A stretch of 64,000 bases of DNA from Limnomonas spitsbergensis. Lineage: Eukaryota > Chlorophyta > Chlorophyceae > Chlamydomonadales. Numbering within the stretch: the stretch's first letter is position 1; each line of letters opens with the position of its first letter. The position numbers and the translations under genes are program-made. Under the pieces are notes generated by a model. That model made no database searches, was not told the DNA's origin, and was given only the letters and a program-made list of their open reading frames with translations. The stretch covers positions 620,001 through 684,000 of the forward strand of contig JAYJMM010000009.1 in the NCBI GenBank assembly GCA_037349105.1, written 5' to 3'. Of this stretch, positions 10,758-62,801 are shown piece after piece.

Positions 10758-11678
10758 CTACCTCCGCCCGCCGCCCCCTGGGGCCGGAGGGCGCTGCAGC
10801 GCTGCGTACGGGTTGCTGCCGTACGGCGCTGGCGGGTTGCCGCCAGCTCCCCCCCTGCCCCCACGCCCGCCCATGGCGTCGAAGAAGCCGCCGGCTCCGC
10901 GCCCGCCGCCGCCGCCGGCGGACGGGTAGTGCGGCCTCATGCCCGGCTGCATCGCGCCAGGTGGGGCTCCGTAACCGCCCCCTCCCGGGGGTGCTCCGTA
11001 ACCACCCCCTGCTGGGGGCGCTCCGTAACCTCCTCCTGCCAGAGGTGCTCCGTAACCACCTCCTTGCGGAGGCGCTCCGTAACCCCCTCCGCCGTAACCG
11101 CCCTGGGCGACAGGCGGGGCTCCGTAACCGCCGCCGCCGTTGTACGCTTGGCTCCGCGGGTCGCCGGAGGCGCCGCCGCCGTATGGCATCGGCTGGCCGT
11201 ACGGCGCGGAGCGGGGCGGGGCGAAGCTGGGCACGGGCGGGCCACGGCCGCCACCGCCGCTGGGCGGGCCATTGTAGAGCCCGGCCGGCGGTCCAACACC
11301 AGCGTACTGCCGCCCCTGCCCGCCGTATCCCCCCGGAGCTCCGTAACCACCTCCATGCTGTTGCTGCTGTTGCTGCATGTATCCTCCTCCTCCTCCTCCT
11401 CCTCCTCCGCCCCCTCTAGGGTCCCTTGCTCCGCCGCCACCTTGGAAGCCGCCGCCACTGCCGTAATTACCGCCACCGCCGCCGCCTCGTCCGCCGTACT
11501 GCCCGCCACCCCTGCCGCCGGAGTCGTACTGCCCACCGCCCCTGCCGCCGGAGTCGTACTGCCCGGCGCCCCTGCCGCCCAGGCCGTGGTTGATGGCGCG
11601 CCTGCCTGCGTCGCCCAGCTGCATCGCGTTGCTGCGGTGGGGGGGGCGGTAGCCGCGCTCGTGCCACAACGGGTCCTC
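10758..11678 (-). CDS. XRN2: XRN2 exon 24: C-terminal domain, Gly-rich tail and stop
   Basis: Residues 943-1248. It begins [16 protein letters not shown] and [10 protein letters not shown], matching the XRN2 region after the core. It then becomes an RGG/QYDSGG-rich and GYGAPP-repeat low-complexity tail with a hexaglutamine run, ending PPAPGGGRR before the stop. Gly-rich RGG tails commonly bind RNA. One decayed acceptor-edge copy lies at about 11925-11998 (frame [16 protein letters not shown]). Confidence 0.88.
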   Translation of the reverse strand, partial: EDPLWHERGYRPPHRSNAMQLGDAGRRAINHGLGGRGAGQYDSGGRGGGQYDSGGRGGGQYGGRGGGGGGNYGSGGGFQGGGGARDPRGGGGGGGGGGGYMQQQQQQHGGGYGAPGGYGGQGRQYAGVGPPAGLYNGPPSGGGGRGPPVPSFAPPRSAPYGQPMPYGGGASGDPRSQAYNGGGGYGAPPVAQGGYGGGGYGAPPQGGGYGAPLAGGGYGAPPAGGGYGAPPGGGGYGAPPGAMQPGMRPHYPSAGGGGGRGAGGFFDAMGGRGGRGGAGGNPPAPYGSNPYAALQRPPAPGGGGRR

Positions 11679-62000: not shown

Positions 62001-62801
62001 AAGTTATAGGGGCCTCAAGAAACAGGTTGGGGTTGTGATTTGCAGGTTCACGGCGAAGGGTCCAGCGTGCTGTATGCGTGCTGTATGCGGTAATTAGGGC
62101 CTCAAGAAACAGGTGATTATTGTAAGTTGGAGGTTAAGGGCTTAGGGTGCAGTGTGTTGGATGCAGTAACCAGGGCCTCAAGTCACCGGCTACGTGTGAA
62201 GCTTGTGGGTTCTACGCTAAGGATTTAGCATTAAGTATGCTGGATACGATATGTAGGGCTTTGGTAACGATTTAGGGTTTAAGGTTGAGATTCAAGCGCA
62301 CCGAACCGCCTTAGTATGGCCTGGATCCGCCACGGACTGTGTCCTGCAGCCATTATAATACGCTGATATTGTGTGCACAAAGCTTGCCAGGCCGTGACCC
62401 CCCTGGCCCGCAGTAGCTGGCTCTTGCATTGAAGGAACCTTCTAGCAGCTCTATGCCCCCCTGGCCCTTCCCCCTTCATAATATGCTGGTGTCGTGGACC
62501 TGAAGCCTGCCAGGCCGTGACCCCTCGTCTGCGGTTGCTGGTGCATGCGCTGGTGGCACCATTCAGCCGTAACATGCGCCCCCTATTCTGCAGCTGGTCT
62601 CCACAATTGACGTCACCTCCAACCACTCCACACTTGCCACAGGTTGCCGGGGCTTATGCTGAAGACCTGCCCTTGATCATAATCTCCGGTGGACCCAACT
62701 CGAATGACTTCCTTGCGAATCATGTGTTGCATCACACCACTGGTTGTGCCTCCGACTATGGGCAGCAGCATAACTGCTTCAGGGAAGTCACTTGCCACCA
62801 G
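58891..62801 (+). CDS. PDC: Gene D: pyruvate decarboxylase, exons 1-3 (3' part off the right edge)
   Basis: The enzyme converts pyruvate to acetaldehyde and CO2 using thiamine diphosphate and feeds ethanol fermentation, normally in the cytosol. Exons are 58891-59002, 61160-61332 and 62643-62801 (148 codons, all in frame). The N-terminus [20 protein letters not shown] leads into [22 protein letters not shown], then [58 protein letters not shown] and NHVLHHTTG. The cofactor-activating Glu (in [11 protein letters not shown], residue 62) and the His-His pair (125-126) are present. The family is usually 560-600 residues, so about three quarters lies beyond the window. Met at 58891 is chosen; a Met at 58906 is possible. 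Intron 1 would need a GC donor (CCAG, GCATGT). Confidence 0.93.
59003..60270. other. PDC intron 1, first part: hairpin and dispersed repeat
   Basis: It contains a perfect 19-bp inverted repeat (59129-59147 and 59157-59175, 9-nt loop), a dispersed repeat (about 59770-59970) loosely related to 1670-1830 with GTAGCTGAATTGTAGCTGAA, and the 60165-60243 partner of the repeat at the left end of the window. No exon seen. Confidence 0.6.
60275..61130 (+). repeat. Seven decayed copies of PDC exon 2 acceptor half
   Basis: Copies begin at about 60280, 60385, 60518, 60668, 60770, 60915 and 61038, each with (in the better ones) TCAG or TTAG then GGGGACTTCAACCTG and codons resembling [29 protein letters not shown]. 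Several have stops or frameshifts (TAG after RLYQ; TAA after KKPEL). The copied stretch reaches about 110 nt into the exon, including the cofactor-Glu region in some. One has lost the AG (TCTCGGGGGAC at 60913). Confidence 0.95.
61160..61332 (+). CDS. PDC: PDC exon 2
   Basis: Residues 38-95, [56 protein letters not shown]. The acceptor is CCTGTCAG and the donor GTGAGC. Only this copy has both splice sites and a full frame. Confidence 0.95.
61390..61900 (+). repeat. Four donor-half copies of PDC exon 2
   Basis: A unit of about 140-150 bp beginning AGCGYGGCATTGGCTGCTG then CTGCGTCAYGTTCTGTGTC recurs at about 61410, 61550, 61693 and 61808. It carries codons [19 protein letters not shown], the donor GTGAGTGGG or GTAGGTGGG and about 75 nt of intron (GAGGTGCAAAGGGTGTCACCC). 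The distal copy has lost most intron similarity. Confidence 0.95.
61901..62390. other. PDC intron 2, middle
   Basis: Loose repeats of GGGCCTCAAGAAACAGG / GGGCCTCAAGTCACCGG (about 62010, 62098, 62168), GTGCTGTATGCGGT and degenerate TTTAGGGTTTAAGG text. No exon. Confidence 0.6.
62340..62550 (+). repeat. Two acceptor-edge copies of PDC exon 3
   Basis: GCCAGGCCGTGACCCCCCTGG then CCCGCAGTAGCTGGCTC (about 62390-62425) and GCCAGGCCGTGACCCCTCG then TCTGCGGTTGCTGGTGCATGC (about 62508-62545) resemble CACAG, GTTGCCGGGGCTTATGC at exon 3. Preceding AATATGCTGGTGTCGTG-like text is also duplicated. Confidence 0.7.
62643..62801 (+). CDS. PDC: PDC exon 3
   Basis: Residues 96-148, [44 protein letters not shown]. 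The acceptor is GCCACAG and the donor GTGCGA, phase 0 on both sides. Confidence 0.95.

Follow-up and report, generated by a model that had tools for sequence, protein, structure and literature searches.

Why do the introns of a gene fill with copies of the edges of its own exons? This question is raised by a stretch of 64,000 nucleotides from the green alga Limnomonas spitsbergensis (assembly GCA_037349105.1, contig JAYJMM010000009.1, positions 620,001 to 684,000 of the forward strand), which is called the window below and to whose first letter all coordinates refer. A sequence-only reading had proposed that the sequence next to exons is duplicated or arrayed together with its splice site in introns of XRN2, PDC and two putative genes, A and B, and had attributed this to a process anchored on exon-intron boundaries. 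The analysis described here favours, with a probability of about 0.6, local tandem duplication that is tolerated by selection, the surplus of exon-edge copies stemming from a mutational bias at these edges.

The XRN2 gene

The gene was placed in the window as follows:

10761-53144, minus strand: XRN2 exons 2-24 and 22 introns, supported by tblastn with relatives, GT-AG junctions and 1268 codons without stop

Exons were initially located by tblastn with a human XRN2 protein. The resulting draft protein had among its best matches proteins from Tetraselmis (65% identity over 62% of the draft), Chlamydomonas sp. UWO241 (75% over 44%) and Haematococcus lacustris (65% over 88%), and these three homologues guided the mapping of exons 2-24. 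All 22 introns between these exons start with GT and end with AG, and the joined exons yield 1268 stop-free codons on the assumption that exon 1 ends with ATGGG. The acceptors of exons 14 (39585) and 17 (32756) end with AAG (GAAG); the remaining 20 mapped acceptors have CAG, except for TAG at exon 21. The UWO241 homologue starts near the start of exon 7 (46799) and lacks the part encoded by exons 1-6. This gene model may have been broken there by repeat-filled introns, too. Exon 24 carries coding tandem repeats in its glycine-rich end (10966-11090 and 11495-11579). They are the only two exon-internal tandem families in XRN2, with periods of 54 (or 27) and 30 bp, and since these periods are divisible by three, they were counted in favour of an explanation by selective filtering.

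Junction-crossing copies in XRN2

The 44 junctions of introns 2-23 (donors of exons 2-23, acceptors of exons 3-24) were searched for copies in two ways. Ungapped extension, which required the copy to continue for at least 6 bp to either side of the junction, showed 22 of the 44 junctions to be copied, in 18 of 22 introns. Introns 8, 19, 21 and 22 had no junction-crossing copy by this measure. The proposed figure of 19 of 23 introns was about right. Among the 22 copied junctions, five were judged to be weak or of simple sequence: the donors of exons 2 and 3 and the acceptors of exons 6, 17 and 18. The other search used 30-mers centred on the junction, and the cut-off was raised where Markov shuffles of the intron reached 22/30. 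At a cut-off of at least 22/30, copies were found for 21/44 junctions in 16/22 introns, donors (10/22) and acceptors (11/22) being alike. At least 24 matches were reached by 16/44 junctions, all within the junction's own intron, and at least 27 by 12/44. Reversed 30-mers served as controls and gave 0/44 matches at 24/30 or better. At this same cut-off, none of the 44 junction 30-mers had a copy beyond its own intron on the same strand of the 64-kb window, and none had an inverted copy on the other strand. Exon interiors, at least 45 bp away from an edge, were copied in 6 of 304 tests.

The copies differ in how much of the exon they include: 10-54 bp in XRN2 and 63 bp in PDC, a variation that speaks against the word 'anchored'. 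The nearest copy lies at a spacing of 25-159 bp in most families, and a few dispersed single copies are located farther off. Donor-side and acceptor-side copies had been reported together for seven introns. By ungapped extension, introns 7, 10, 12 and 14 contain both kinds. In intron 9, donor copies are accompanied by a single acceptor copy whose AG is lost, and in intron 13 by diverged acceptor-side copies discernible by eye only. Intron 20 combines an acceptor array of about 157 copies, in agreement with the maximum given before, with no donor copy detectable by ungapped extension. Ten arrays or groups of copies that include an exon edge are listed here, followed by three intron-internal arrays for contrast:

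16527-29564, minus strand: intron 20, array of the exon-21 acceptor side, about 157 units of 83 bp that each carry 45 bp of exon start
36746-39537, minus strand: intron 14, array of the exon-14 donor side, 19.5 units of 143 bp with 54 bp of exon end
49598-50541, minus strand: intron 4, array of the exon-4 donor side, 14.4 units of 65 bp with 32 bp of exon end
46188-46676, minus strand: intron 7, array of the exon-7 donor side, about 20 units of 25 bp with 18-20 bp of exon end
44835-45168, minus strand: intron 7, array of the exon-8 acceptor side, 4 units of 84 bp with 48 bp of exon start
44033-44179, minus strand: donor-side copies of exon 9 in intron 9, 79-bp unit, 31 bp of exon end, another copy farther down
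43084-43396, minus strand: donor-side copies of exon 10 in intron 10, 129-bp unit, 40 bp of exon end
42078-42514, minus strand: intron 10, array of the exon-11 acceptor side, 4.1 units of 108 bp with 47-57 bp of exon start
41326-41809, minus strand: acceptor-side copies of exon 12 in intron 11, units of 55 bp and longer, 31 bp of exon start
40317-40937, minus strand: intron 12, four copies of the exon-13 acceptor side that include up to 42 bp of exon start
50701-52258, minus strand: intron-internal array in intron 3, 70 bp, 21.7 copies, not reaching an exon
14628-16135, minus strand: intron-internal array in intron 21, 20 bp, 75.4 copies
12270-13699, minus strand: intron-internal array in intron 22, 38 bp, 37.6 copies

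Diverged donor-side copies of exon 10 extend to about 42.65 kb. The exon-21 array comprises 58 haplotypes among 153 cut units, and one block of nine units is present twice, which fits unequal exchange or multi-unit slippage.

In total, XRN2 introns contain 33 head-to-tail tandem families with periods of 13-184 bp; as head-to-tail repeats with units of about 10-100 bp, the intron families qualify as minisatellites. The introns sum up to 38,585 bp; with inverse copy number as the weight of each position, about 10,990 bp remain. This means, junction copies and other tandem repeats together enlarge the XRN2 introns more than threefold. The share of sequence that lies in tandem arrays is 69% for the XRN2 introns, 34% for the PDC end of the window (60.6-64 kb), 13% for the region 1-10.7 kb and 7% for the region 53.2-60.6 kb. 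Per collapsed kb, these four regions hold 2.4, 1.6, 1.0 and 0.7 families, respectively.

PDC and the remainder of the window

PDC is encoded on the plus strand. Matches to Pfam and to solved structures located two of its exons. At the first one, both edges are copied:

60523-61159, plus strand: four diverged acceptor-side copies of the PDC exon
61160-61332, plus strand: PDC exon (thiamine pyrophosphate binding domain), both edges copied, placed by Pfam and solved-structure matches
61270-61780, plus strand: donor-side array of this exon, 141 bp, 3.6 copies, 63 bp of exon end

Ungapped extension identified four acceptor-side and three donor-side copies of this exon and neither kind for the other one (62643-62801). 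The intron behind the latter contains a 49-bp array (63070-63518; 9.2 copies, 99% identical) that does not reach an exon and is a very recent expansion.

Genes A and B yielded no Pfam match when both strands of 1.2-10.7 kb and 53.2-60.8 kb were searched in frames read through stops, and a Pfam search with 20 single-frame stretches returned the PDC domain as the only match. A codon-usage scan outside 11.0-53.2 kb flagged two weak plus-strand stretches (5155-5322 and 5980-6222) and low-complexity ones. The two stretches have an XRN2-like codon usage and no Pfam match; possibly, they are exons of gene A or B. Upstream of XRN2, a 12-bp repeat, ATGCCCTCACCC, is present in 19.6 copies (54239-54473) and is open in both directions, encoding Met-Pro and Gly-Met repeats. 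Its codon-usage flag is probably due to composition. Of the four genes for which boundary copies had been claimed, XRN2 and one of two PDC exons could be verified, and genes A and B are without a Pfam match. The conclusion that four unrelated genes imply a genome-wide process rests on two verified genes, with statistics from one of them, and is not supported in that form.

Are exon edges over-represented?

In the raw profile, 30-mers at a distance of 40-120 bp inside the intron have copies in 8-14 of 22 cases on each side, and those on the junction in 10 and 11 of 22. Since the intron flank of an array is itself array, each position was then counted once, and junctions were compared with unique intron positions by a binomial test, for XRN2 only. 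At a cut-off of at least 22/30, 0.477 of the junctions (21/44) are copied vs 0.237 of the unique intron positions (P 0.0004). The corresponding values are 0.364 vs 0.186 at 24/30 (P 0.004), 0.318 vs 0.152 at 26/30 (P 0.004) and 0.273 (12/44) vs 0.132 at 27/30 (P 0.01). For the closest copies, the excess is not significant: 0.205 vs 0.123 at 28/30 (P 0.085) and 0.182 vs 0.116 at 29/30 (P 0.13). The comparison of edges, exon middles and intron positions, which had been suggested as a check, yields for XRN2 0.477 at edges, 6/304 in exon interiors and 0.237 at unique intron positions. An excess of exon-edge copies over unique intron positions is, hence, statistically supported in this single gene.

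A profile of first occurrences (22/30) peaks on the junction with 0.44. On the exon side, it amounts to 0.38 at -30 to -10 and falls to 0.02 at 50-70 bp into the exon. Into the intron, values of 0.31-0.35 at 10-70 bp are followed by 0.17-0.25 at 70-170 bp and by 0.09-0.32 deeper in the intron, where 0.32 is confined to one bin (270-290 bp).

When families are counted instead of positions, nine of the 33 in XRN2 introns extend 8 bp or more into an exon, compared to 4.8 expected (P 0.03), and the other 24 stop short of this. With stricter scores, 7/26, 7/24 and 7/21 families extend into the exon, where 4.2, 4.0 and 3.7 are expected (P 0.10, 0.086 and 0.055). The edge excess at the family level is weak. 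This count is conservative because at least three families classified as internal (46818-46928, 40666-40937 and 41456-41809) hold junction copies. Breakpoints were analysed in 19 families, 17 from XRN2 and two from PDC, with five weak or dispersed XRN2 cases excluded. The exonic share of the unit ranges from 0.16 to 0.80 with a mean of 0.40; it is distributed more narrowly than uniform (KS P 0.009) and has no fixed point. What remains of the proposed exon-boundary process is an approximately twofold higher copy frequency at junctions than at unique intron positions; a fixed cut at the splice site is not found. The exclusion of random slippage is not supported as worded, in view of the many families that stay inside introns and the weak family excess.

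Simulations of neutral growth

Neutral growth was simulated in introns that underwent random tandem duplications, deletions and substitutions. Duplications that changed the mRNA were rejected, exons changed more slowly and splice sites were fixed. The outcome was scored with the 30-mer identity cut-offs used for the real gene, on random base composition and without a shuffle floor, and sets of 22 introns were compared with the observed ratio of junctions to intron positions. The ratio was relied upon instead of the count because copied intron positions were scarcer in several settings than in XRN2 itself.

Eleven unbiased settings, three of them with unit slippage, gave ratios of 0.80-1.18 at 22/30, where 2.0 is observed (P 0.0000-0.008). 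At 24/30, the P values for the observed ratio lie between 0.0000 and 0.05. At 27/30, ratios of 0.63-1.25 correspond to P values of 0.0007-0.10, the highest one belonging to a setting without multi-copy events. Three pilot runs with 60 introns each had yielded 0.48, 1.01 and 0.87 at 22/30. Neutral simulation had been expected to account fully for the edge copies and did not, as simulated sets seldom attained the observed ratio. When junction-crossing events were made two, three or four times as frequent, the ratio rose to 1.39, 1.78 and 1.94, and slippage combined with a threefold bias gave 1.56. In these models and for this one gene, an event bias of about threefold would fit the data and no bias would not; this bias may lie in the origin or in the retention of copies.

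Splice sites and reading frame within the copies

If a copy were used instead of the exon-adjacent site, a frame shift or a stop would result for 256 of 267 copies, a tally in which the 37 copies of exon 14 include out-of-register matches (a separate count finds 20). Consequently, an intact protein depends on the first donor and the last acceptor being chosen. Such a choice would be provided by exon definition, since only exon-adjacent sites would have a partner across a real exon.

In donor copies, the splice GT is kept in 68/70 cases, compared to 200/242 for other GTs within 20 bp, and at four cut-offs it ranks first or second of 36 dinucleotides. The bases beside it are nearly as well kept (0.86 vs 0.96). 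In acceptor copies, the AG ranks 8th to 19th of 36. A conserved acceptor core had been considered for the exon-21 copies on the basis of 155 ungapped copies and was rejected after gapped alignment of 153 units revealed flanks inflated by indels. Between exons and the majority of their copies, differences amount to 15/226, 11/229 and 27/227 at codon positions 1, 2 and 3.

How might the copies have arisen?

The underlying observations are that, at 24/30 or better, XRN2 copies are direct and within the window restricted to the intron beside their own exon, that many are arranged head to tail, that their breakpoints vary and that the joined XRN2 reading frame is open. Under the preferred reading, stretches straddling an exon edge would be duplicated locally and in direct orientation, splice site included, into the neighbouring intron. 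A duplication inside an exon would usually be lost and one inside an intron would be neutral. A duplication across a donor or acceptor would likewise be neutral, provided that the spliceosome continues to choose the first donor or the last acceptor, via exon definition. Selection would, thus, tolerate junction copies because splicing would go on using the exon-adjacent site. Subsequently, arrays are likely to enlarge through unit-level slippage or unequal exchange. Ordinary minisatellite growth combined with selection accounts for much of the pattern, and the surplus at exon edges most likely stems from a mutational bias there; it is about twofold when counted in the sequence and corresponds to an event rate of about threefold in simulation. 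The best reading is that of a known kind of process in an extreme form. Against a mutational bias stands that the edge excess fades for the closest copies (28/30 and 29/30), where a bias should be clearest, that it is weak when families are counted, and that one unbiased setting gave the observed ratio at 27/30 a P of 0.10. In addition, the retention of the donor GT could also mean that copies are used.

Would growth that is blind to position suffice? Repeats born in the intron as neutral minisatellites could spill over the boundary, and the exonic half of a copy would decay more slowly. This is in line with the majority of families ending short of the exon and a family-level excess with P values of 0.03-0.10, with raw copy frequencies 40-120 bp into the intron that equal those on the junction, and with the lack of a significant excess at 28/30 and 29/30. 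With every position counted a single time, copies are twice as frequent at junctions as at unique intron positions (22-27/30), and simulations that comprise spill-over and slow exon decay stay below this in all eleven unbiased settings (P at most 0.008 at 22/30). Therefore, we regard a purely neutral origin as unlikely, though a serious competitor. Retention of the copies for a function, as spare or regulatory splice sites that aid or tune the splicing of large introns, would explain why the donor GT outlasts other nearby GTs and stays at the top of the dinucleotide ranking. Nevertheless, flanking bases are conserved almost to the same degree, the acceptor AG is not prominent, the use of nearly all copies would break the frame, and the exon-21 array looks merely young, its aligned units being variable at few sites. 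This makes a functional origin improbable.

Since the copies hold intron and exon sequence like unspliced RNA, one might think of pre-mRNA fragments or an introner-like element copied back into introns. Units arranged head to tail at constant spacing and the lack of any junction 30-mer copy in another intron or on the other strand (at least 24/30, within the window) render such RNA-templated or mobile insertion very improbable; transposition or retro-copying is disfavoured by copies that are local and direct. Equally little weight is given to a mis-assembled or artificially expanded repeat. A 13-kb array is indeed hard to assemble, but the largest array contains 58 haplotypes among its 153 units, and many other families are short and diverged. 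The local-duplication reading can also be taken much further: Exon edges might be true duplication hot spots at either end of the intron, at least three times as active as its remainder; introns would then grow outward from exons and fill with ready-made splice sites. Such a process might be coupled to splicing or transcription (e.g. by R-loops or polymerase paused at exon boundaries), act genome-wide and make the spliceosome depend on exon definition for skipping up to about 157 near-identical acceptors. This far-reaching version is speculative, and we consider it rather doubtful.

Relation to known systems

Introner elements are a single repeat family with splice signals that has spread over many genes. 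They resemble the junction copies in that repeats bear splice signals, but within the window, each XRN2 junction has its own local family, and similar copies at unrelated loci were not found (0/44 junction 30-mers outside their own intron in 64 kb).

Direct local copies that hold intron and exon sequence, the hallmark of junction-crossing duplication, are present at 22/44 XRN2 junctions. One tandem duplication across an acceptor made a new intron in the RdRp gene of potato (PMC4974935), and tandem duplication as a route of intron gain has been reviewed (PMC3443670). Both the potato case and XRN2/PDC involve a direct tandem copy with the 3' end of the intron, the acceptor and the start of the next exon. 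In potato, however, a single duplication created a new intron, whereas XRN2 has many copies, including donors, in most introns, and the exon-adjacent site must stay in use (PMC4974935). In introns, above all those of Chlamydomonas reinhardtii and Volvox carteri, tandem repeats are denser near intron-exon junctions, and a link to splicing has been suggested (PMC3887541). XRN2 shares with them the setting in green algal introns and the higher repeat density by junctions. In that part of the source, the repeats are described inside introns near their ends, while XRN2 units include splice site and exon sequence and form large arrays (PMC3887541). Large introns filled with minisatellites or satellites are exemplified by a reported Drosophila case (PMC6508621); like XRN2 introns, they are enlarged by head-to-tail arrays, but in XRN2 and PDC, the unit often holds the splice site and part of the exon.

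Three cold-living relatives have mean intron lengths of 516, 788 and 934 bp according to two snow-alga genome papers (PMC11228838, PMC11247165), whose accessible portions do not mention junction copies. Titles and abstracts among the matches listed, mostly from outside subscription journals, contain no description of splice-junction arrays.

Implications

Introns with junction copies are likely to mislead gene prediction and repeat masking. If the bias at exon edges were genome-wide, it would constitute a source of intron growth that starts at the exons. It would also provide a natural test of splice-site choice, in which the first donor or the last acceptor has to be selected among near-identical ones, whose number reaches about 157 in a single intron. 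In this way, exon definition would become directly testable in an alga.
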